Shown here in pieces: positions 1,696 to 58,652 of a stretch of DNA of 60,327 bases; positions within the stretch are counted from its first letter, which is position 1; every line of letters starts with the position of its first letter. The stretch comes from a virus. A program made the translations under genes and the position numbers. The notes beneath the pieces were generated by a model that had not been told where the DNA came from, did not search any database, and worked only from the letters and a program-made list of their open reading frames with translations. The stretch lies in the IMG/VR virus record IMGVR_UViG_3300008113_010061, positions 1 to 60,327 of that record. The stretch is one strand, 5' to 3'.

Positions 1696-2718
1696 ATGAA
1701 AAACCTACTTATAGCTTTACTATGCTTCACCGGTGTTGCATCAGCTGCTGAATTTACTGGAGCAGGTGCTACTTTTCCTTTTCCCATCTATGCCAAGTGG
1801 GCCGAAGCCTACAAAGCACAAACTGGCATTGGCCTAAACTATCAAAGCATTGGTTCAGGTGGTGGTATCAAACAAATCAAAGCCAGGACTGTTGACTTTG
1901 GTGCCAGCGACATGCCGCTCAAACAAGAAGAATTGGACAAAGAAGGTCTTGTACAATTCCCAGCCATCATCGGTGGTGTTGTTCCAGTATTCAACCTTGA
2001 TGGCATTGATGCTGGTAAACTCAAATTAACACCCGATGTAATTGCCAACATTCATCTTGGAAAAATTACAAAATGGAATGATCGAGCAATTGTTGATTTG
2101 AATCCCGGCGTCAATTTACCTGCTATTCCCATTGTAGTAATTCATCGTGCCGATGGTTCTGGCACCACATTTATCTGGACAAACTTTCTGGGCAAAGCCA
2201 ATGCTGACTTTCAAAAGACAGTAGGTGAAGGCACAGCAGTTAAATGGCCAGTTGGTGTAGGCGGTAAAGGCAACGAAGGTGTGGCTGTTCAAGTACAAAG
2301 ACTTAAAGGTGCTTTTGGTTACGTCGAATATGCCTATGCCAAGCGTAATAAGATTCCCTATGCAGCTGTGAAAAATCGCGACGGCAACTTTGTACAGCCC
2401 AGCGATGATACATTCAAAGCAGCAGCCGCAAATGCAGATTGGAAAAATGCACCAGGCATGTATTTGTTACTCACATGGCAAACAGGCAAGGATGCTTGGC
2501 CAGCCACAGGTGCAAGTTTCATCCTCATGCATCGTCAACAAGCAGACGCGTTAACCGGTCGCGCAGTTCTAAAATTCTTTGATTGGAGTTACCGCAACGG
2601 CGGTCAAATGTCAACTGAACTAGAATATGTTCATATGCCAGCCGATGTCATCAAACTAGTTCAGGACAATTGGAAACGAGACTTCCGTGGTCCAGACAAC
2701 AACCCAATCTGGAAATAA
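1696..2718 (+). CDS. pstS: PstS, periplasmic phosphate-binding protein
   Basis: PstS binds phosphate in the periplasm and hands it to the PstCAB transporter. The chosen start gives a 340-residue precursor with a signal peptide (MKNLLIALLCF..., cleavage likely after ASA at about residue 17). Typical motifs follow in order: GAGATFPFPIY (22-32), SIGSGGG (51-57), DFGASD (67-72) and RADGSGTT (151-158), which supply the phosphate-binding loops. An in-frame start eight codons upstream would spoil the signal peptide. The gene is followed after 9 bases by a phosphate porin gene. PstS is a well-known auxiliary gene of marine T4-like phages and would raise phosphate uptake during infection; no pstCAB is visible here, so it must use the host transporter. 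Confidence 0.92.
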   Translation: MKNLLIALLCFTGVASAAEFTGAGATFPFPIYAKWAEAYKAQTGIGLNYQSIGSGGGIKQIKARTVDFGASDMPLKQEELDKEGLVQFPAIIGGVVPVFNLDGIDAGKLKLTPDVIANIHLGKITKWNDRAIVDLNPGVNLPAIPIVVIHRADGSGTTFIWTNFLGKANADFQKTVGEGTAVKWPVGVGGKGNEGVAVQVQRLKGAFGYVEYAYAKRNKIPYAAVKNRDGNFVQPSDDTFKAAAANADWKNAPGMYLLLTWQTGKDAWPATGASFILMHRQQADALTGRAVLKFFDWSYRNGGQMSTELEYVHMPADVIKLVQDNWKRDFRGPDNNPIWK

Positions 2719-2727
2719 GGAACAGCC

Positions 2728-4134
2728 ATGAAATTATTTAAAATTTTTGCTATTGTGGCGGCCATGGTAGCAACAACCCCAGCGTTGGCCGATGAGTATA
2801 AAGATACACTGAATATTCTCAGAGAGAAGAATGTAATCACTCAACAAGAATATAATGACAAACTCAAGGCCTATGAAGATAGAGAAGAAAATAAAAAGTT
2901 TGCAGAGCAAAGAATCGACAAAGATGTTAGCGATTCAGTCAAATATAGACAAGCAAGAGCAAACGATGGTTCAGTCACAGAAAATGGACTTGGACTCAAA
3001 TCGAAAGATGGGAACAATACAGCACAGTTTACGGGTAGAATTCACATGGACTATCGACACTACACACCAGATTATGGTGTCGGTCAAACCACGGATTCGT
3101 ATCAGAACTTAGCAGAAGTTCGCCGTGCTAGATTTGGTGTTCGCGGTCAGTTTGCCAAAGACTTTAAGTACCAATTGCTGGCCAATTTCGGTGGAAGCGA
3201 TGGCTTTAGTTCTACGTCAAGCACCGCTGACGAAATGTGGGTTAACTATGCTGCAAATCCAGAGATGCAGTTTCAATTTGGTTTGTTCAAAATGCCGTTC
3301 AGTCTTGAACAGTTGACTAGTTCAAACAATCTTGACTTCATGGAACGCAGTCTCATTGGTCAAAATGATACTGAATTTATTCCTGCCAAAGAAACTGGTT
3401 TTATGCTGCACGGCGTACCAAAACCTGGGTTGACCTATGCAGTGGCAGTCAGCCGAGGCAAGTCAAACAAGAGTGCAGAGTTCGATGGACTTGACTACAT
3501 TGGTCGTATAACCACCAACATTGCCGAGCTCACCGGCAGCAAAGCCTATGTTGCACATCTGGGTGCAGCATACAGCACTGGTGAGATCAAGAGCGGTGTT
3601 GCACCAGCCAGTGGCAGAACAGAATCACGTATGCAGTCTGGTTGGTTTACTGGTACTGCGTTGAGTGGTGCTACTACAAGAACACGCCAAGGATTAGAAG
3701 CAGCTGTTGCATATGATGGCCTTAAAATTCAGGGTGAGCAATTCAATTTCAAATATGATCCTTTGTCTGGCAGCGATCAAGAAATTCGAGGTTATTATGT
3801 TCAGGCACTATATAATCTGACCGGCGAATCACATGCATACAAAGACGGTGTGTTTGGCTGGATCAAACCAAACAATCCCATTGACAAAGGCGGTAAAGGT
3901 GCATGGCAAGTTGGTGTGCGCATGAGCGAGTTTGATGCCAGCGACATCAGCGTAGCCACTGGTAAGTCGAATCGTGCTACTGCCATGACCTATGGCATTA
4001 CCTGGTTCTGCACCGACAATCTGCGATTCATGCTTAACTATGTCGACACCAAATTTGACGCACTAGTAGGCAGTTCCGGCAGTCGTGTAAATGGCGAAAA
4101 AGCCATTATGTTTAGAAGTCAGCTGAGTTTTTGA
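2728..4134 (+). CDS. Phosphate-selective porin, OprP/OprO-like
   Basis: This 468-residue precursor has a clear signal peptide (MKLFKIFAIVAAMVATTPALA). A short charged, probably coiled-coil stretch follows (about 25-75, DTLNILREKNVITQQEYNDK), as in the N-termini of OprP/OprO porins. The rest is a repetitive beta-barrel sequence with GRIHMDYRHY, EVRRARFGVRGQF, QFGLFKMPFS and LDFMERS, all typical of the phosphate-selective porin O/P family. The last residue is Phe (RSQLSF), the sorting signal for outer-membrane barrels. An AAGGA site precedes the ATG and pstS lies 9 bases upstream, so the two form an operon. Together they would carry phosphate across the outer membrane and through the periplasm. 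Whether the channel prefers phosphate or polyphosphate cannot be told. A porin gene in a lytic phage is unusual. Confidence 0.85.
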   Translation: MKLFKIFAIVAAMVATTPALADEYKDTLNILREKNVITQQEYNDKLKAYEDREENKKFAEQRIDKDVSDSVKYRQARANDGSVTENGLGLKSKDGNNTAQFTGRIHMDYRHYTPDYGVGQTTDSYQNLAEVRRARFGVRGQFAKDFKYQLLANFGGSDGFSSTSSTADEMWVNYAANPEMQFQFGLFKMPFSLEQLTSSNNLDFMERSLIGQNDTEFIPAKETGFMLHGVPKPGLTYAVAVSRGKSNKSAEFDGLDYIGRITTNIAELTGSKAYVAHLGAAYSTGEIKSGVAPASGRTESRMQSGWFTGTALSGATTRTRQGLEAAVAYDGLKIQGEQFNFKYDPLSGSDQEIRGYYVQALYNLTGESHAYKDGVFGWIKPNNPIDKGGKGAWQVGVRMSEFDASDISVATGKSNRATAMTYGITWFCTDNLRFMLNYVDTKFDALVGSSGSRVNGEKAIMFRSQLSF

Positions 4135-4163
4135 TATATAATTAATGATTTTCATGATGTAAA

Positions 4164-4208
4164 TTCAGGCCCAAACTGTATAGATACTATGCAGGCATTG
4201 GGCCTGAA
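4164..4208 (+). promoter_or_regulatory. Long hairpin in the leader of pqqA
   Basis: TTCAGGCCCAA (4164-4174) pairs perfectly with TTGGGCCTGAA (4198-4208). Inside it, CTGTATAG (4176-4183) pairs with CTATGCAG (4187-4194) apart from one G-U, over an ATA loop. It stands 6 bases before the pqqA Shine-Dalgarno site. No U-run follows, so it is not a normal terminator; it may stabilise the short mRNA or stop decay coming from the porin message. Confidence 0.6.
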
Positions 4209-4225
4209 CAACCTAGGAGAAAACT

Positions 4226-4300
4226 ATGAAGTGGACCACACCCGCAGCTCAAGATATGCGTTTTGGCTTTGAAATCACCATGTATATCGCAAATCGCTAA
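4226..4300 (+). CDS. pqqA: PqqA-like precursor peptide of PQQ
   Basis: This 24-residue peptide starts MKWTTPAAQ and ends FEITMYIANR. PqqA peptides of proteobacteria are 22-29 residues long, start with M(K)W, and carry a Glu and a Tyr three residues apart; the radical SAM enzyme PqqE joins these two side chains and all atoms of the cofactor pyrroloquinoline quinone come from them. Here they are E16 and Y20 in the strongly conserved context FE-[IV]-T-x-Y. The start has a good Shine-Dalgarno site (AGGAGA, 4215-4220) 5 bases before ATG. A hairpin precedes the gene and a promoter-like TTGACA begins right after its stop. No pqqB-E genes are nearby, so the phage would feed extra substrate to host enzymes. 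The short length is the main reason for caution. Confidence 0.8.
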   Translation: MKWTTPAAQDMRFGFEITMYIANR

Positions 4301-4326
4301 TTGACATTCTAGTATAGATATATAAT
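4301..4326 (+). promoter_or_regulatory. sigma70-like promoter after pqqA
   Basis: A perfect TTGACA (4301-4306) starts directly after the pqqA stop codon. An AT-rich stretch with TATAAT (4321-4326) follows, but at 14 bases the spacing is short; AATAAT at 4324-4329 gives a normal 17. It probably drives the 89-aa gene. Confidence 0.4.
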
Positions 4327-4390
4327 AATAGCAGTTGCTGGACCTGTATAAAACCAGCACACATCACTCACAACACAGAAAGGTACCACC

Positions 4391-4660
4391 ATGTCAAATC
4401 TGACACCGTTCGAGATTCGCCTTGAACTTCTAAAAATGGCGAAGGAAATGCTTACCGAAGAGTATTATGGTAAGCGTGATCAAATTAGTCAAGACTGGCA
4501 AGTCAAGGTAGAGTCCGCTAAACTTCACGGACAACAAATACCTGAACACCCAGCACTTCCGCCCTACCCCACAGAAAACGATGTCATTGCCAAGGCACAG
4601 TCCTTGAATGGTTTTGTTTCTAACACACCCTCAGATAAAGTAAGCAAAAAATCTGCCTGA
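4391..4660 (+). CDS. Conserved small protein of T4-like phages, 89 aa
   Basis: The protein starts MSNLTPFEIRLELLKMAKEM and continues with LTEEYYGKRDQ. Small proteins with this N-terminal pattern (LTPFEIRLELLKMA) recur in marine T4-like phages, but their function is unknown to me. The N-terminal 35 residues look like an amphipathic helix; the middle is Pro-rich (PEHPALPPYPTEND) and the end is Lys/Ser-rich. A GAAAGG Shine-Dalgarno site lies just upstream. It has its own promoter-like sequence and a hairpin terminator after it, so it may be a single-gene transcription unit. Confidence 0.75.
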   Translation: MSNLTPFEIRLELLKMAKEMLTEEYYGKRDQISQDWQVKVESAKLHGQQIPEHPALPPYPTENDVIAKAQSLNGFVSNTPSDKVSKKSA

Positions 4661-4707: not shown

Positions 4708-5265
4708 ATGCTGAACAGACACATTGTTCGACGTTTTTTAGTTAGTGCCACGTTATTTTCCGTATTTGTAGCCGGCATCAATACACTGTATCAAACTCAG
4801 GCGCAGGCTCGCATGGCCCAGGAAATCCAAAGCCAACGCATTGCTGCCGAGCGCACCAAAAAGAAATTGGTAGAAGCCAAACTCAATCGCGAAATTACCT
4901 GCATGGCTCGCAACATCTATTTTGAAAGTGCCAGCGAGCCCATCAAGGGCAAGATTGCCGTGGCTCAGGTCACCATGAACAGAGTCAACAGCGGTCAATT
5001 TCCTGCATCGGTCTGCGGTGTTGTACACCAAAAGACTCACTACGAAGGTTTGACTGTATGTCAGTTCAGCTGGGTCTGTGAAGGCAATTTGAAGATTCGC
5101 GCACCGCATCTCTATGAAGAAAGTCTGCGCGTAGCTCGTCGCGTCATGCTGGATGGTGTGCGTCTACCAGAACTGCAGGGTGCCAAATACTTCCATGCTA
5201 CCTATGTACAGCCTGGTTGGAATAAACAACCCAAGGCTCGCATTGGTAACCATATTTTCTATTGA
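4708..5265 (+). CDS. Cell wall hydrolase, SleB family (probable endolysin)
   Basis: SleB-type hydrolases (Hydrolase_2 family) cut peptidoglycan as lytic transglycosylases. In this 185-residue protein the catalytic domain spans about 63-185 and shows the family signatures MARNIYFESASEP (catalytic Glu region), IAVAQVTMNRV, FPASVCGVVHQK, CQFSWVCEG, and a final IGNHIFY. Residues 9-27 are hydrophobic (FLVSATLFSVFVAGI), so it is either a signal-anchor (SAR-type) endolysin that needs no holin pore or a periplasmic lytic enzyme; a helical linker follows (30-60). Start: ATG with AAGGAG 7 bases upstream. A strong promoter overlaps its stop codon. The three-helix holin on the other strand could be its partner in lysis; that is inference. 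Confidence 0.85.
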   Translation: MLNRHIVRRFLVSATLFSVFVAGINTLYQTQAQARMAQEIQSQRIAAERTKKKLVEAKLNREITCMARNIYFESASEPIKGKIAVAQVTMNRVNSGQFPASVCGVVHQKTHYEGLTVCQFSWVCEGNLKIRAPHLYEESLRVARRVMLDGVRLPELQGAKYFHATYVQPGWNKQPKARIGNHIFY

Positions 5266-11477: not shown

Positions 11478-12166
11478 AAAAAACTGTTCATACCCTCCAT
11501 GACGACTTCATTGTGTTTTCCGCATTCCTTACAGTCCCACGCCATGTCATGTCGCAACACGGGCATGGTAACAAAGAAGTTTTCTAGACGGTCCAGTGTA
11601 GCTGGGTTTAAATTTTCTACAAATTCTACGAGTTCGGCTACACTGTAATCCTGGGCAGCAATGCGTTCATCGCCTTCCCAGATGCTGTCTATGCTGCCGG
11701 CAATCAAATTAATGATGCTGTCTATGTTGGATTCTGCCTGCATGGTGCTAAGATCCGTCAGCGTGGGATACCGCATCTCAATGCTGACATTGTTGTCAAC
11801 ATCTATGGTTTTACTGTGTTCTGGTTTGCGATCTACTTTGACTGAAGTCACATCCAGCTTGGCATCCTGCTTGGCTTCACAGCTGCAGGTCAGAACTATG
11901 TTGACAGTTTCTCCTACGCTGTGCGCGCGAATATTTAAGAACAAAAATTCAGCGTCAAAAGCCGGTAATTTTTCTGCATTGACTTTGCCAAAGGTACAGG
12001 CGTGTATAACTTCGTTGAGTGCAGAAATTTGCTGATCAGCACCGCCATTGGTGGCCATGAGCAGCAGTTTTTGTTCTTTGACTAAAAATGGACGAAACTC
12101 TATCCGTTCGCCAGTGCTGGGCAATTCAATTCGATGCTTGGGTGTTGTAAGCAATGGTAAAGACAT
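11471..12166 (-). CDS. gp26: gp26 baseplate hub subunit / tail chaperone
   Basis: This 231-residue protein matches the T4 gp26 family (208 aa in T4). It opens LPLLTTPKHRIELPSTG, then IEFRPFLVKEQKLLLMA, the most conserved block of the family, followed by ALNEVIHACTFGKVN and the hydrophobic FLFLNIRAHSVGE. Cysteine pairs CSC (about residues 106-108) and CKEC (about 214-217) may bind zinc. T4 gp26 takes part in assembly of the central hub; homologues are also seen as tail chaperones. Start: ATG after AAGGAG. The downstream gp51-like frame appears to be reached by frameshift at its 3' end. It lies between gp54 and the holin on the minus strand. Confidence 0.8.
   Translation of the reverse strand: MSLPLLTTPKHRIELPSTGERIEFRPFLVKEQKLLLMATNGGADQQISALNEVIHACTFGKVNAEKLPAFDAEFLFLNIRAHSVGETVNIVLTCSCEAKQDAKLDVTSVKVDRKPEHSKTIDVDNNVSIEMRYPTLTDLSTMQAESNIDSIINLIAGSIDSIWEGDERIAAQDYSVAELVEFVENLNPATLDRLENFFVTMPVLRHDMAWDCKECGKHNEVVMEGMNSFFA
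11477..11483 (-). other. Candidate -1 ribosomal frameshift site U_UUU_UUC
   Basis: On the minus strand the gp26 gene ends AGT TTT TTC GCC TAG. The heptamer T TTT TTC has the X XXY YYZ form in the correct frame, two codons before the stop. A -1 slip leads straight into the 62-codon gp51-like frame. Confidence 0.65.
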
Positions 12167-12184
12167 TCAATTCTCCTTGGTGTG

Positions 12185-12961
12185 TTATACTTTCAATGCC
12201 GCGCGAGCGTTTGAACTAAGTCGACTACTATCTATTCGATTGTTGTTTGCTGTACCGCGCGAATTTCTGCTGCCCGCCACCTGTTGAGTTCTCGGTGTAT
12301 CTGATGGTGGCTGATTGCTGGTGGTCATGCTCATGCTTCGCCAGCGTCGATAGCACAATGTAACCGACATTTTAGTAACCTGATTGGTCATGTCATAGCC
12401 CAGACTAATGGGGTTGATGGCTATGGGAAATACATCCTCAAACACTGCGGTATAGTGTGCTCGATCATCTTCATCCAACTGTGTAATGGTCAGGCCCTGA
12501 CACATGTAGTTTTCAGGATAATGCACACAACCAGTGAACCGTCCAGTACGCACAACAACGCCGTCGACCCAGATGTCAAAAAATTCTTTTACAGTATACC
12601 ATTTGTCTAGCGCAAAGGTCATGCTAAGATTGTCGCCGCCGTAGTCTGCGCCTATGGGATGAAAACTAGGTGGTCCAAAAATTTGTTGTCTGGTGGTGAT
12701 GATGCGCGTGGGCGGCAACGACACCTGTTCACAGAATACGCTGAGTCTGGCGCCGATGCGACTGCTTATGGAATTCTGTGTTCGATATCTGCCGCCACTG
12801 GTCTTCAGACTCAGCGACTCATCTACACTGAATTGTTGCACGCAGGCCGGCACGGTAAAATTAACTTCATAGCGATTGGGCTTAGCCATGCCACGATCAG
12901 ATATCTCAGCCATGATGTCACTCAAACCATACTGCGCTTTGGGCATTAATTGATATGCCAT
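12185..12961 (-). CDS. gp54: gp54-like baseplate tail-tube initiator
   Basis: In T4, gp54 caps the baseplate hub and starts polymerisation of the gp19 tail tube. This 258-residue protein shows tube-type features also seen in gp19: NRYEVNFTVP at the start, LSVFCEQVSLPPTRIITTRQ, IFGPPSFHPIGADYGG and LSMTFALDKWYTVKEFFDIWVDG, then YTAVFEDVFPIAINPISLGY. These are the strands of the tail-tube fold. The C-terminal 45 residues are Ser/Asn/Arg-rich and look disordered. T4 gp54 has 320 residues. gp48, its usual partner, is the first gene on the opposite strand. Start: ATG after GGAAAG. Moderate confidence on the exact gp number; the tube fold is clearer. Confidence 0.65.
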   Translation of the reverse strand: MAYQLMPKAQYGLSDIMAEISDRGMAKPNRYEVNFTVPACVQQFSVDESLSLKTSGGRYRTQNSISSRIGARLSVFCEQVSLPPTRIITTRQQIFGPPSFHPIGADYGGDNLSMTFALDKWYTVKEFFDIWVDGVVVRTGRFTGCVHYPENYMCQGLTITQLDEDDRAHYTAVFEDVFPIAINPISLGYDMTNQVTKMSVTLCYRRWRSMSMTTSNQPPSDTPRTQQVAGSRNSRGTANNNRIDSSRLSSNARAALKV

Positions 12962-12970
12962 GTTCTTTCC

Positions 12971-13543
12971 TTAGATGTGTTTTCTGCTGTCTCGCCAGAC
13001 AGTCTGGGTTGCTGCGCCCTGGAATCGTTCTATGGGCATCATGCTGGCTGCCAACCATTGATCATGTGGTATGTCCATGAAACGACTCTTGACATGGTCT
13101 GTTAAGTAATGCTTAACACAGGCACCCACGCCGGGAAACTTTGATCCTGAATTTAAGATGTTCCAGCTGATCTGCGCACGCATGCGTGGATCGTTGTGAC
13201 GATGTGTAACTTCCAGCAAGGCGCCCATGAGTCTGAATCTAATACCATAGGGCAGATAGTGCAGGTTCAGTCCATAGAAGCCGCCCTTGATGGACCTAAA
13301 GGGAAACACCAAGGGCATCTGATCCCAGTAGGGCAGAGTGTCCTTGTGCTTGGCATCGTACATGAACAGATATAGCCCACCAGGATATACACGACTGCGC
13401 AGGCCTGCAGATCCACTCATCATGCCAGTAACGTTGCTGTTCAGTCCCCGCAGATTCTTAACCTGAGTCTGATACCAGTTTACGCTGCGCTGCACATCGC
13501 CGGCGCGTACGGTGAGTTCTCTGAAGGGATTATAGGTTGCCAT
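12971..13543 (-). CDS. gp2: gp2-like DNA end protector
   Basis: T4 gp2 binds the ends of packaged DNA and shields them from host RecBCD nuclease after injection. This 190-residue protein (274 in T4) carries the recurrent pattern LYLFMYDAKHKDTLPYWDQMPLVFPF followed by GGFYGLNLHYLPYGIRFRLM, which I know from gp2 homologues of cyanophages. WNIL and HDQWLAASMMPIERF lie near the C-terminus. The start chosen gives MATYNPFREL and leaves four bases after the gp4 stop; a slightly earlier ATG overlaps gp4. Neighbourhood with gp4 is as in T4, where genes 2 and 4 are adjacent. Confidence 0.6.
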   Translation of the reverse strand: MATYNPFRELTVRAGDVQRSVNWYQTQVKNLRGLNSNVTGMMSGSAGLRSRVYPGGLYLFMYDAKHKDTLPYWDQMPLVFPFRSIKGGFYGLNLHYLPYGIRFRLMGALLEVTHRHNDPRMRAQISWNILNSGSKFPGVGACVKHYLTDHVKSRFMDIPHDQWLAASMMPIERFQGAATQTVWRDSRKHI

Positions 13544-13547
13544 GATA

Positions 13548-14000
13548 TTATTTATCAAGATTCAAATCGTTTTCCGTAAGTATCATGAACTGCCAGCCCC
13601 GATTCTCGCAGTATTCCGTAGCCGACTTCCACTTGCTTTGATTCACGCCCCAGGTACGAACTTCTTCGATGAAACGTGGAGTGATGCGCGCTGGCTTTTT
13701 GGGCTGCTGCACAAACTTGGCTGGTTTGATTTCTATGAGATAGCGTTGTTCATTGCCATCTCGGTTGCGTATCTTGACATAGAAATCCACGAAATATCTG
13801 TGTATTCTTTGGTCTACGGGCGATAAATAAGGTATAATGATCTCTTCGCTACCCCATTCCAGCACAGCGGAATTGTTGTCGCACCATTTCATGAACTTCA
13901 ATTCCCACAGACTGCGATAAACAATCTGTGTGGGATCGCCAATGTACTTCTTGGCATTGATGATGCGATAACGTCCTTTGTAGGTCTGGCGAGTGTACAT
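13548..14000 (-). CDS. gp4: gp4 head completion protein (PD-(D/E)XK nuclease-like)
   Basis: gp4 (also called gp50/65) finishes the filled head so a tail can join. The start at MYTRQTYKGRY gives exactly 150 residues, the T4 length. Sequence features: YRSLWELKFMKWCD, then VDFYVKI and YLIEIKP with D72, E90 and K92 forming a D-x(n)-ExK nuclease motif like that of TnsA-type enzymes; the end GWQFMILTEND matches the family. It is the first gene of the minus-strand cluster, about 30 bases downstream of a late-promoter box, and diverges from gp48 with only 31 bases between the start codons. Confidence 0.85.
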   Translation of the reverse strand: MYTRQTYKGRYRIINAKKYIGDPTQIVYRSLWELKFMKWCDNNSAVLEWGSEEIIIPYLSPVDQRIHRYFVDFYVKIRNRDGNEQRYLIEIKPAKFVQQPKKPARITPRFIEEVRTWGVNQSKWKSATEYCENRGWQFMILTENDLNLDK

Positions 14001-17069: not shown

Positions 17070-19855
17070 ATGATAATATTTTTGGTCGTGACGGATTTTA
17101 TTGGTGGATTGGTGTGGTTGAAGATCGCAACGACCCAGAAAAAATAGGTCGTTGCCGTGTACGCATTCTGGGCTATCATATTGATAACAAGGATACCCTG
17201 CCCACCGCAGATCTGCCCTGGGCCATACCCATGCAGAACATCAACAGCGCTGGCATCAGCGGCAAGGGCAGCGCACCTGTAGGACCCTTGGAAGGCAGCT
17301 GGGTCGTAGGTTTTTTCCTGGATGGTAAAGACAAACAACAGCCCATGATCATGGGCACCATGGGAGGTCTGCCCGACAAAACCACAGGGTGTGCCACTCA
17401 AGAAACCAACACCGCAAACAATAGTTCCAATGTACTGCGTGATGGTGGTGGCAATGTGGTTAACGACGGCAGTGGTAATCCTGTGCGTACTGATCAGGGT
17501 ACTGCGGTTCCAGCCCAACCTGCTCCTACCAATCAAAAGATTCAAGAGAATCTGGAAAAAATAGTTTTGGCCTGTAAAAAGCAGGGCATAACCAATCATT
17601 ATTTCGTGGCAGCTGTCATTGCCAATGCGCTCAAAGAAGCCGGCGGCAAAACCATAGCTGAATTCAGTTATCGAGGCACAGACTATGCTAATCTGAAAGT
17701 CATTTTTGGTGGTCTGAGATTAAGTAAACATACTCCAGAAGAGTGGGAAAACGAGATTAGAAAAGACGACATACGATTTTTTGATCTCATGTATGGTCTG
17801 ACCTGTGCAGATCGAAGCAAGCCCGAAGGTTTCAAACACTTTGCAGTTGGTGACGGATTCAAGTATCGTGGGCGTGGCTTCATACAATTTACTGGCAAGA
17901 GTTTATACAGCCGTCTAAGTCAGATTGCCTATGGCGATGAAAGATACGTCAAAAATCCTGATCTGTTGCTGGACCCCGAAAACGCAGCCCAGGCTACTGC
18001 AGCCTTTATGAAACTCAGCATACAATCTGGTACAGCCATGCGGCTCACCGGAGTAAGTTATCCGCCGACATCGCAGGCCAATGCCGACCTGCTGGTCACC
18101 AGCATGGTGGCGGGCGGTGGAGATGTGCGTAAGTATGAACAGGGAAGAAAAATTCTGGCCAAAGTTAATGGTTATTCACCCAACTATACCGTGGGTGCTA
18201 GCCCTGGTGGTGTACGCGTAGCTGAACTGCTGGGTCAACCCGGAGGCACACCTCCCAATGATGTCAAACCCAATACTGCGCAGCCTGATCCACAGACCAC
18301 ACCGCCCACAGAAAGTCTGAACGATCCACGTCTGGGCAACCCACCGGCTTTTTCAGATCCCAACAGTGTGTATCCCAAGTGTGATTATACTGACAGACCC
18401 GACACCAATAAACTAGCCACGGGCGATACCGAAGGCACCATAGTTGAATCCAAGAATCGAGACCGCAGTCTAGGCATAAACAAAGCCAATGGTGGTAGCT
18501 GGGATGAACCAGATTCGGCATACTGTGCACAATATCCGCACAACCATGTCATTGAAAGTGAAAGTGGCCATGTCATAGAAATGGATGATACGCCAGAACG
18601 TCAGCGACTACACATCTATCATCGCGCCGGAACCTTTGTAGAAATTGACCAAAACGGCACCTGGGCGCAACGAGTCAAGGGCGATTACTACGGGGTGTTT
18701 ATTCGCAACAATCGAGTCTACATCAAGGGCGACTATGATGTCACAGTGGACAATGCCACGCGCATACGAGCCAACGATGTACTAGAAATCGAAGTTGCCG
18801 GCAAAACCACCATCAATGTTAAAAACGATGCCAACATCAACGTAGCTGGCAGTCTCAAGGCTCATGCCAAAAATATCTACATGGAGGCTGACACCGATGT
18901 TCACATCAAGGCTGGCAGCAACATGTATCTGCAGGCCGGACAGGCCATGAACATCAAGTCTGGTGGTGGCATGGCGCTGGATGGCAGCAGAATAGATCTC
19001 AATGATGGCGTAGCCGTGGCTGCTACTGCCACGGGACTTGGCACCTTGGAAACTGCGGTGCCCACGAACAATCCGCTGACTGATTTAGATCGCCCAACCT
19101 GCGACAAGGCCATAGAAGAACGTAGCTCAGGTGATGCTGGCGAAAATCCACAAAAACAAGAAGAAGATGTAAAGACTGGTAAAAAGACTCAGGAACAAGT
19201 TGATCGTGGCAAGGAAATTGCTCAGGCTGGGTGTAAACGATCTGATACCAAGGTTCCCATCATTGTTCCACCCGCACCATATAAAACCGGAGAGTTTGCA
19301 AATTATCGCGAAACACCGATGAGCATACAACTCAGTGCCAATTTCAATCTTTTAACTCTGGCAGAATGTGGCAGCAGCAGCAAGACCGACAACAGAAGAT
19401 TCTGGGCCAGTGCACCAGGAACTCTGGGCAACGGTTTAACCAAGTCGCAGCTGTTGGACAATCTGCGTGGTCTGTGCGTCAATGTCTTGGAACCCATTAA
19501 ACGTCGTTTCCCACAGATGTATTTGACCAGCTGTCTGAGATTTGGTCCCAAGGAAGCACAACACGGCGAGGGACTGGCAGCAGACATGCAGTTTGGTGGC
19601 GGACTGGCTGCACCGCAGTTGTATGATGCAGCCCTATGGATTCGCGACAACGTAGCCTATGATCAATTGTTGTTGGAATATGGTACCTTCGGTGGTGTAT
19701 TCCAGGGCTGGGTACACTGCAGTTTTAATCCCCGTGGCAATCGAGGCGTAGAAGGGCGTAACGGTTATCCCAAGGTAGCAACCTTCATGGATCACAACAT
19801 TGCACGCGGAGCTGACGGTAAACAGAAACTCTATTTGTGTGATTTAAGTCGATGA
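17066..19855 (+). CDS. gp5: gp5 spike with GH19-like and M15-peptidase-like domains
   Basis: gp5 is the cell-puncturing spike. This form has 929 residues (575 in T4). Domains in order: OB fold (about 4-103, GFYWWIGVVEDRNDPEKIGR); a GH19 chitinase/lysozyme-like domain (about 158-375) with KEAGG (Glu191 probably catalytic) and YRGRGFIQFTG (268-278); a linker; a beta-helix needle of short repeats (about 490-650, e.g. HVIEMDD, YIKGDYDVTV, KAGSNMYLQ); and a C-terminal domain (about 750-929) with TSCLRFGP, QHGEGLAADM (H833, D840) and WVHCSF (H884), the zinc ligands of M15 D,D-/L,D-peptidases. T4 has one GH24 lysozyme here. Two different cutting activities, on glycan and on peptide, are therefore likely. 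Start overlaps the hub gene (ATGA). Confidence 0.9.
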   Translation: MNDNIFGRDGFYWWIGVVEDRNDPEKIGRCRVRILGYHIDNKDTLPTADLPWAIPMQNINSAGISGKGSAPVGPLEGSWVVGFFLDGKDKQQPMIMGTMGGLPDKTTGCATQETNTANNSSNVLRDGGGNVVNDGSGNPVRTDQGTAVPAQPAPTNQKIQENLEKIVLACKKQGITNHYFVAAVIANALKEAGGKTIAEFSYRGTDYANLKVIFGGLRLSKHTPEEWENEIRKDDIRFFDLMYGLTCADRSKPEGFKHFAVGDGFKYRGRGFIQFTGKSLYSRLSQIAYGDERYVKNPDLLLDPENAAQATAAFMKLSIQSGTAMRLTGVSYPPTSQANADLLVTSMVAGGGDVRKYEQGRKILAKVNGYSPNYTVGASPGGVRVAELLGQPGGTPPNDVKPNTAQPDPQTTPPTESLNDPRLGNPPAFSDPNSVYPKCDYTDRPDTNKLATGDTEGTIVESKNRDRSLGINKANGGSWDEPDSAYCAQYPHNHVIESESGHVIEMDDTPERQRLHIYHRAGTFVEIDQNGTWAQRVKGDYYGVFIRNNRVYIKGDYDVTVDNATRIRANDVLEIEVAGKTTINVKNDANINVAGSLKAHAKNIYMEADTDVHIKAGSNMYLQAGQAMNIKSGGGMALDGSRIDLNDGVAVAATATGLGTLETAVPTNNPLTDLDRPTCDKAIEERSSGDAGENPQKQEEDVKTGKKTQEQVDRGKEIAQAGCKRSDTKVPIIVPPAPYKTGEFANYRETPMSIQLSANFNLLTLAECGSSSKTDNRRFWASAPGTLGNGLTKSQLLDNLRGLCVNVLEPIKRRFPQMYLTSCLRFGPKEAQHGEGLAADMQFGGGLAAPQLYDAALWIRDNVAYDQLLLEYGTFGGVFQGWVHCSFNPRGNRGVEGRNGYPKVATFMDHNIARGADGKQKLYLCDLSR

Positions 19856-57005: not shown

Positions 57006-58652
57006 ATGGCCGATCTTACATTATTTGGTTACACTATTCAGAAAAAGCAGGCCGAGGCTCCTAAACAGAGCTTCGTGCCTCCTACTGATGACGACGGTGC
57101 CACCACCGTCAACGTCAGCGGGTTCTACAACACCTACATTGACATTGACGTCATTGCCAAGTCTGAAAATGATTTAATCAGCAGATATCGCGATGCATCC
57201 AACTATCCAGACTGTGACAGTGCCATAGAAGACATTGTCAACGAAGCCGTGGCAGCGCAAGACGATGAAGCCGTGGTCAAGCTGGATCTGGAAAAAGTGG
57301 AACTTAGCAAGAGTGTCAAGAATTTAATCGAAGAAGAATTCGACACCATACTTAACCTGCTGGATTTTAACAGCAAGGCTCATGATATTTTTAAGCGCTG
57401 GTACATCGACGGCCGCATCTATTATCACAAGATTGTCAATACCAGCAACCCCAAGCAGGGTATACAAGAACTTCGCTACATTGATCCCCGTAAGATCAAA
57501 AAAGTACGCAAGGTAGAAAAGAAAAAAGACCAGGCCACGGGCGTGGAATTCATCACCGGTGTAGAAGAATTTTTTATCTACAACGAAAAGGGATTGATTG
57601 CCACCGTGCCCAGCACAGCCAATGCGTCACAGGGTCTGAGAATTGCACCCGACAGCATCACCTATTGCACCAGCGGATTGCTGGATCTGGATCGCAACAT
57701 GGTGCTGAGTCATCTGAATAAAGCCATTAAGACTGTGAATCAGCTGCGCATGGTGGAAGACAGTCTGGTGATCTACCGCATGACACGTGCACCAGAACGC
57801 AGAATTTTCTACATCGACGTTGGTAACCTGCCCAAGGCCAAGGCCGAGCAGTATGTCAAGTCAATCATGAACCAGTATCGCAACAAGGTTACCTATGATG
57901 CCAGCACTGGTGAGATTCGCGATGAAAAGAAGACCATGAGCATGTTGGAAGACTTCTGGATGCCACGTCGCGAAGGCGGCAAAGGCACGGAAATCACCAC
58001 GCTGGATGGCGGACAGAATCTGGGCGAGATCAACGACATCAATTACTTCCAGAACAAACTATATCAATCGTTGAACGTGCCACTGAGCCGCATGAAGCCC
58101 GAGACAGGCATGAACTTTGGTCGCCAGGCCGAGATTACCCGAGACGAATTAAAGTTTGCCAAGTTTATTAGTCGTGTTCGTAAAAAGTTTACCGAACTGT
58201 TCGACGACCTGCTGAAGACTCAGCTGGTGCTGAAAGGCATCATGAAGGCCGACGAATGGGACAAGATCAGAGAAGATATTTACTATGAGTTTACCCAGGA
58301 CGCCTACATAGCCGAGGCCAAGGAAAGCGAGATTATGCGCAACCGCCTGGATCTGTTGAACAGCATCAACAACTATGTTGGCACATACTTTAGTCGCGAA
58401 TATGTCTATGACAAGATTCTGCACATGACCGACGAAGAAGTCGAAGACATGAAGGCCGACATTGCCAATGATACTGATCTGCAGCAACAAATGGCTGCAC
58501 AGCAGGCCGGGCCTGGCGCCGAACAGGCAGCTGCCATGAGTCGGGAAGTATCAACGCAGCAGCCCGCGCCCTATAACCCCGAGAACCCAGTAGTTGAAAT
58601 GGTTCCAGCCGCTATAAATAACATCATGGAACTTAGAAAGGTTAAACTATGA
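57006..58652 (+). CDS. gp20: gp20 portal protein
   Basis: gp20 is the 12-subunit ring through which DNA enters the head. The 548 residues compare with 524 in T4. Landmarks: DLISRYRDASNYPDCDSAIEDIVNEAV, FKRWYIDGRIYYHKI, ELRYIDPRKIKKVRKV, RAPERRIFYIDVGNLPKAKAEQYV, MLEDFWMPRREGGKGTEITTL and NVPLSRMKPE, all of which are the standard markers used for gp20 in environmental surveys. The end is Gln/Pro-rich. Overlaps the next gene by 4 bases. Confidence 0.97.
   Translation: MADLTLFGYTIQKKQAEAPKQSFVPPTDDDGATTVNVSGFYNTYIDIDVIAKSENDLISRYRDASNYPDCDSAIEDIVNEAVAAQDDEAVVKLDLEKVELSKSVKNLIEEEFDTILNLLDFNSKAHDIFKRWYIDGRIYYHKIVNTSNPKQGIQELRYIDPRKIKKVRKVEKKKDQATGVEFITGVEEFFIYNEKGLIATVPSTANASQGLRIAPDSITYCTSGLLDLDRNMVLSHLNKAIKTVNQLRMVEDSLVIYRMTRAPERRIFYIDVGNLPKAKAEQYVKSIMNQYRNKVTYDASTGEIRDEKKTMSMLEDFWMPRREGGKGTEITTLDGGQNLGEINDINYFQNKLYQSLNVPLSRMKPETGMNFGRQAEITRDELKFAKFISRVRKKFTELFDDLLKTQLVLKGIMKADEWDKIREDIYYEFTQDAYIAEAKESEIMRNRLDLLNSINNYVGTYFSREYVYDKILHMTDEEVEDMKADIANDTDLQQQMAAQQAGPGAEQAAAMSREVSTQQPAPYNPENPVVEMVPAAINNIMELRKVKL
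58613..58620 (+). promoter_or_regulatory. Late promoter inside the end of gp20
   Basis: An exact TATAAATA lies in the last codons of gp20, 29 bases before the ATG of the following small gene, with GAAAGG between. It would start a transcript for the prohead core genes. Confidence 0.55.

Follow-up and report, generated by a model that had tools for sequence, protein, structure and literature searches.

The 60,327-base stretch analysed here, referred to below as the window, is the whole of the virus contig IMGVR_UViG_3300008113_010061 (48% GC) and carries, within the genome of a T4-like phage of freshwater bacteria, a stand-alone gene for PqqA, the precursor peptide of PQQ. The phage gene is probably a working one that is expressed as extra substrate for the PQQ pathway of the host: its peptide would be translated, processed by the PqqD and PqqE of the host, and raise PQQ to the benefit of the phage. 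The evidence comes from the identity of the peptide, from the locus and signals that surround it, from selection among related viral genes, and from the recurrence of single pqqA copies in unrelated phages.

A PqqA Gene of 24 Codons

The gene (4226–4300, +) runs from an ATG at 4226 to a TAA at 4298–4300, i.e., 24 codons and a stop, and translates as MKWTTPAAQDMRFGFEITMYIANR. This peptide matches the Pfam PqqA family PF08042 with 38.9 bits (E = 7.8e-10, cut-off 21.1) and the NCBIfam equivalog TIGR02107 with 39.1 bits (E = 4.8e-10, cut-off 20). Because both profiles are spanned end to end, a chance match is excluded, and the frame is confirmed, as far as sequence can tell, as a true PqqA gene. 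This was the outcome of a profile search proposed in the original prediction, which had recognized PqqA by its length, its N-terminus, and the placement of Glu16, Thr18, and Tyr20. The Glu-x3-Tyr cross-link pair of the family is present, with Glu16 encoded at 4271–4273 and Tyr20 at 4283–4285; the numbering is that of the pair cross-linked by PqqE in M. extorquens (Methylorubrum) (PMC10906245). PqqA genes typically code for about 22–29 amino acids and have their own ribosome-binding site. The window peptide has 24, and the strong ribosome-binding site noticed at the outset corresponds to a Shine-Dalgarno AGGAG at 4215–4219 (+), 6 nt ahead of the ATG. Adjacency to pqqBCDE is not found in the 60-kb record. 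Such adjacency is customary for pqqA and not a defining trait, so that its absence does not disqualify the gene, and solitary pqqA copies are common in Methylophilaceae (PMC4109929). An antisense ORF that is longer than pqqA (4187–4360, −) overlaps it in the window.

Phage, Cargo Locus, and Host

The type of the phage is marked by a T4-type portal, gp20 (57006–58652, +; phrog_213, 693 bits; tblastn), by which the nearest cultured relative is Melnitz (55.5%, tblastn). The contig also contains gp32 (phrog_224, 389 bits), gp59 (PF08993/PF08994), the gp18 sheath (PF17482/PF22671), and the gp21 protease, all T4-type, as well as a terminase, and these agree with the T4-like setting first assigned to it. 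Since portal, gp32, gp59, sheath, and terminase share the contig with pqqA, the latter lies inside a phage genome and is not contaminating host DNA. Nor is it an assembly accident, because contigs from other metagenomes (L091, L109/L282) share both the gene and its flanks; this also answers positively the suggestion that viral contigs be searched for the gene at the matching place. In another record (L018), the T4-type portal gene (contig positions 18851–20368, −) crosses one in-frame TAA, for which a frame error, an intron or intein border, and stop recoding are candidate causes.

The pqqA gene occupies a variable cargo locus, bordered on the left by a tmRNA and on the right by a gene coding for 89 amino acids. 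The tmRNA (1232–1641, +; RF01850, 145 bits; ARAGORN 1252–1641) is permuted, two-piece, and of betaproteobacterial type, whereas that of Melnitz is reported as alphaproteobacterial-type. Its tag peptide is ANDESYALAA. Remnants of tmRNA-like minus-strand ORFs in relatives suggest that a tmRNA is common at this border. The 89-aa protein, MSNLTPFEIRLELLKMA... (4391–4660, +), gave no match in family profile searches; it is conserved in the clade, with 281 relatives in viral contigs, and is a core gene of the T4-like clade of the window. Further downstream, a cell-wall hydrolase (4708–5265, +; PF07486, 90 bits) is a neighbor kept with pqqA in 30 loci. The locus also holds a phage auxiliary gene for a PstS-like phosphate-binding protein (1696–2718, +; phrog_5385, 215 bits; PF12849) and a gene for a phosphate-selective porin O/P (2728–4134, +; PF07396, 168.5 bits), which together (1696–4134, +) form a phage-borne two-gene phosphate-uptake set for periplasm and outer membrane.

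Among 70 relatives that have the 89-aa gene and adequate upstream sequence, an intact pqqA lies upstream in 17 and other genes take its place in 53, one of which (L358) has a pqqA more than 10 kb off in its record. No decayed copies were seen among the 70. Hence, pqqA is an accessory gene, gained and lost as a unit, and, having no place at this locus in 53 of 70 relatives, it is non-essential. This absence counts against a supply of substrate by the phage. The position of pqqA in a variable locus beside phosphate-uptake genes points to nutrient-limited infection, and it would also suit a cargo for host adaptation with no role for PQQ dehydrogenases in a short lytic cycle. Such a cargo could act in slow infection, in pseudolysogeny, or in starved cells, or could provide PQQ as an antioxidant, PQQ being redox-active. 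This alternative is unlikely, although not so unlikely as to be passed over; the recurrent hosts argue against it, as they are methylotrophs, whose main energy enzyme is PQQ-dependent.

As for the host of this phage, the bacterial PqqA peptides nearest to that of the window belong to Burkholderiales, e.g., Rhodoferax MKWEKPAASDMRFGFEITMYIANR and Comamonadaceae MKWQTPAASDMRFGFEITMYIANR, with a best identity of 88%. In phages whose hosts are known Methylophilaceae, the C-terminus of PqqA reads VMNK, VLNK, or IMTR, and Lys2 is absent from most of the peptides. Given the nearest peptides, the betaproteobacterial tmRNA, and the 48% GC, a betaproteobacterium that makes PQQ is the probable host. The original prediction of a PQQ-making host is thus retained; its further suggestion of methylotrophy is no more than a possibility, the peptide being closest to Rhodoferax and Comamonadaceae.

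Expression Signals around pqqA

Of 122 related pqqA genes from phages, 119 have a Shine-Dalgarno core at most 18 nt upstream of the start. In the window, a long hairpin, TTCAGGCCCAA...TTGGGCCTGAA (4164–4208, +), stands immediately 5′ of the ribosome-binding site (fold −29.5 kcal/mol; z = −4.6 versus 200 shuffles, the stretch folded being 4130–4230). Only this longer stretch is stabler than its shuffles, the predicted mRNA from 4178 onward being no stabler than expected from them. Relatives of the clade have a hairpin between a TATAAT-like element and the Shine-Dalgarno, and the inner arm CAGGC/GCCTG (4192–4196/4202–4206) of the window hairpin is found at the place of this 5′ UTR hairpin, of which the window has a version lengthened to 45 bases. 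Within a set of eight sequences, all 8 pairs of the relatives' hairpin are retained, with 11 cells altered on both sides; no shuffle matched this covariation, and slid versions were only 19–67% paired. Stems of at least 6 pairs occur in 14 of 16 relatives (4.4 expected). The likely role of the hairpin would be to stabilize a short abundant mRNA.

A candidate −10 element of the pqqA promoter is TATAGATA (4179–4186, +), at the same spot as TATAATC/TATAGATA in relatives; consensus promoter scoring upstream of pqqA gave no strong match. A strong sigma70-like promoter, TTGACA-17-AATAAT (4301–4329, +; 11 of 12 consensus bases), starts just past the pqqA stop and leads into the next gene. The upstream motif TTAATGATTTTC, present in some relatives, occurs once in the window, which is about chance level, and was set aside; a looser form of it lies within 250 nt at 20 of 122 loci.

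Spread and Selection among Viral Contigs

Viral contigs were searched with a DNA pattern that fixes MKW..P.....R[hydrophobic]G[hydrophobic] and leaves Glu16, Thr18, Tyr20, and the C-terminus free, as an earlier pattern with Glu and Tyr fixed was unusable for assessing their conservation. The viral collection contains at least 121 such short frames, of which at least 120 are PqqA; the exception among the 121 listed (L130) is a 22-aa chance frame. Among the matches listed, Glu16 is present in 120 of 120 PqqA frames and so is Tyr20, and both are also found in all 17 pqqA genes identified by synteny. The original prediction had held that changes of either residue in relatives would speak against it, and the 120 frames listed show none. 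The mean pN/pS is 0.32 over 96 distinct pqqA genes, with a value of 0.185 among the 40 that share the window's type, and one contig (L054) codes for a peptide identical to that of the window with 8 synonymous differences. Judged by these substitutions, purifying selection acts on the phage PqqA peptide; auxiliary metabolic genes are expected to be kept by selection, and a pN/pS of 0.185–0.32 places phage pqqA among them in this respect.

The same data bear on whether the phage peptide is a decoy or inhibitor, as had also been suggested at the outset, which would occupy PqqD and PqqE productlessly so that host PQQ falls. PqqD binds the leader of PqqA with high affinity (Kd 0.39 µM; PMC10906245), and a dead peptide could compete. 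Loss of Glu16 or Tyr20 would then pay, yet both persist in every phage PqqA frame listed, and the whole core of the peptide is under purifying selection; the decoy thus finds no support and is very improbable. Equally hard to credit is passenger DNA, i.e., a functionless host fragment picked up by chance. Genes of 24 codons are easily acquired and many close relatives lack pqqA, but the reading is already largely refuted by selection (pN/pS 0.19–0.32), and ribosome-binding sites in 119 of 122 genes, a covarying 5′ hairpin, and the presence of the gene in unrelated phage lineages also contradict it.

The record named "Acinetobacter phage MD-2021a" (CAKLQF020000010.1, L260) was rejected as phage evidence, since it contains a polyphosphate kinase and a bacterial pqqABCDE operon and is probably a mislabelled host contig.

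Single Copies without the PQQ Enzymes

Each of 50 pqqA-bearing virus records (16–372 kb, window included) has exactly one pqqA. Profile searches of these 50 records gave no PqqE above cut-off, and neither PQQ alcohol dehydrogenase nor PqqD was found in any of them, the window included; PqqC was absent from the 50 as well, by a search that had no positive control and carries lower weight. The PqqE search works, as all 16 genomes of PQQ-making bacteria to which it was applied yielded the protein. The records are mostly fragments, so that PQQ genes elsewhere are possible for individual ones. The earlier remark that no PQQ enzymes are encoded nearby extends, for PqqE, PqqC, PqqD, and PQQ alcohol dehydrogenase, to the entire 60-kb record, which itself probably covers only part of a larger genome. 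Weak radical-SAM matches (17–34 bits) in 4 of the 50 records might hint at a precursor of some other modified peptide, processed by phage enzymes, but they are below cut-off, none is near pqqA and none in the window, and the sequence is ordinary PqqA, termini included, which makes this the least credible of the alternatives.

The 50 records do not come from one lineage. Their T4-type portals form two groups (about 680–700 and 350–380 bits), one record has a T7-like portal, and in further records the capsid and portal genes next to pqqA are unrelated ones. Named phages with pqqA are the Methylophilales phages Melnitz (four isolates), Venkman, MEP301, MEP401, MEP402, and P19250A, and the podovirus ctXG6705; they include a 141-kb Kyanoviridae phage, 35–39-kb phages, and Zobellviridae. 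Melnitz is a Kyanoviridae phage on the OM43 methylotroph H5P1. All nine cultured Methylophilales phage records reached by search, a set that leaves MEP431–434 aside, carry pqqA, and they represent several unrelated lineages. In the named-phage collection, the Pelagibacter phage Mosig, a T4-like relative, and many T7-like Pelagibacter phages gave no pqqA match.

In the records of named phages, pqqA is either unannotated or hidden under an antisense "hypothetical protein." The latter is the case for Melnitz (MZ577097, 76100–76195, −), where pqqA was overlooked because the antisense ORF is annotated instead. In the publications that describe MEP301, MEP401, and Melnitz, the main text makes no mention of pqqA. 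On balance, we lean slightly toward regarding stand-alone pqqA as a convergent and widespread signature of phages on PQQ-dependent bacteria. Several unrelated lineages would each have taken only the component that is stoichiometrically consumed, keeping PQQ dehydrogenases loaded after host shut-off, and the gene would have been missed through its 24-codon size and antisense ORF calls.

Probable Supply of a Consumed Precursor

PqqA is consumed in the making of PQQ, one peptide per PQQ, from which Glu16 and Tyr20 are excised, while the pathway enzymes are reused. These enzymes have been termed "reusable elements" (PMC9851590). When infection halts host expression, the PqqB–F proteins would persist and the pool of PqqA would be drained first. 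A phage gene of 24 codons may then restore PQQ flux by supplying the peptide alone, and the PQQ-dependent periplasmic alcohol and sugar dehydrogenases, with their electron flow, would thereby be sustained until lysis. In keeping with this, hosts carry several pqqA copies and one pqqE: Methylophilaceae have 3–12 pqqA copies for a single pqqBCDE set (PMC4109929), and Burkholderiales genomes of 1.3–1.4 Mb mostly have three, some larger ones 6–8, with one PqqE. In Methylosinus, pqqA transcript reaches about 11,900–13,900 versus about 165 for pqqE, i.e., about 70–80 times more (PMC3615186).

The genuine PqqA sequence, its invariant reactive residues, selection, single stand-alone copies, and expression signals all favor substrate supply. 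The original idea that extra precursor leads to more PQQ is the best reading; with it stand the stand-alone PqqA, the T4-like phage, and the PQQ-making host, and the decoy falls away, with the methylotrophic host no more than possible. Two published cases set bounds to this model. The Lake Baikal phage with pqqA also had a methanol dehydrogenase, and supply of the peptide only is thus not the sole arrangement (PMC7678222). In Gluconobacter, as cited in PMC7936290, overexpressing pqqB alone raised PQQ more than did pqqA alone; therefore, PqqA is not always limiting.

If substrate supply is correct, phages that infect methylotrophs or other PQQ users act on alcohol oxidation at its cheapest point, the consumed precursor and not the enzymes, and a simple rule would describe which host gene is acquired by a phage, namely the one for the component that gets consumed. 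Pairs of host and pqqA-bearing phage are available in culture (Melnitz and Venkman, both on OM43 strain H5P1, MEP301, MEP401, and P19250A). The growth medium of H5P1 contains 1 nM PQQ (PMC9004378), which could mask a benefit of pqqA. Phage pqqA could also be used as a virome marker for PQQ-making hosts, and it exemplifies genes of fewer than 30 codons that escape annotation.

Comparison with Known Systems

Phage pqqA as a kind has been known since 2020, when Coutinho et al. named PqqA in the Lake Baikal contig VP_266, T4-like and assigned to Methylophilaceae, and suggested that it serves the supply of PQQ (PMC7678222). Viral pqqA, pqqE, and pqqD also appear in a reservoir study of 2026 (PMC13188868). 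The part that appears to be new is the breadth and convergence of phage pqqA. In the literature searched, with most subscription journals outside its scope, no prior report was found of this breadth, of the strict stand-alone pattern, of pqqA in cultured methylotroph phages, or of the consumed-substrate rule.

VP_266 resembles the window in that a T4-like phage on betaproteobacteria that use PQQ carries a gene for PqqA. It differs in GC (35% versus 48%) and in having a methanol dehydrogenase on the contig and radical-SAM genes in a partner contig, whereas in the window, as in 49 other records, PqqA is accompanied by neither PqqE nor a PQQ alcohol dehydrogenase. The multiple pqqA copies of Methylophilaceae include solitary extras located apart from pqqBCDE, in line with an increased substrate dose (PMC4109929); these are chromosomal, whereas that of the window is phage-borne. 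The cultured Methylophilales phages share with the window a single stand-alone PqqA of about 23–24 amino acids in which Glu and Tyr are retained. Their peptides are mostly without Lys2 (MWT...) and end in VMNK, whereas that of the window, MKW...IANR, is Comamonadaceae-like.

Cyanophage psbA offers an example of a phage that replaces the host component spent fastest, in that case D1, a protein that is damaged and turned over. The likeness to phage pqqA would be functional only: D1 turns over whereas PqqA is consumed, and the sequences are unrelated.
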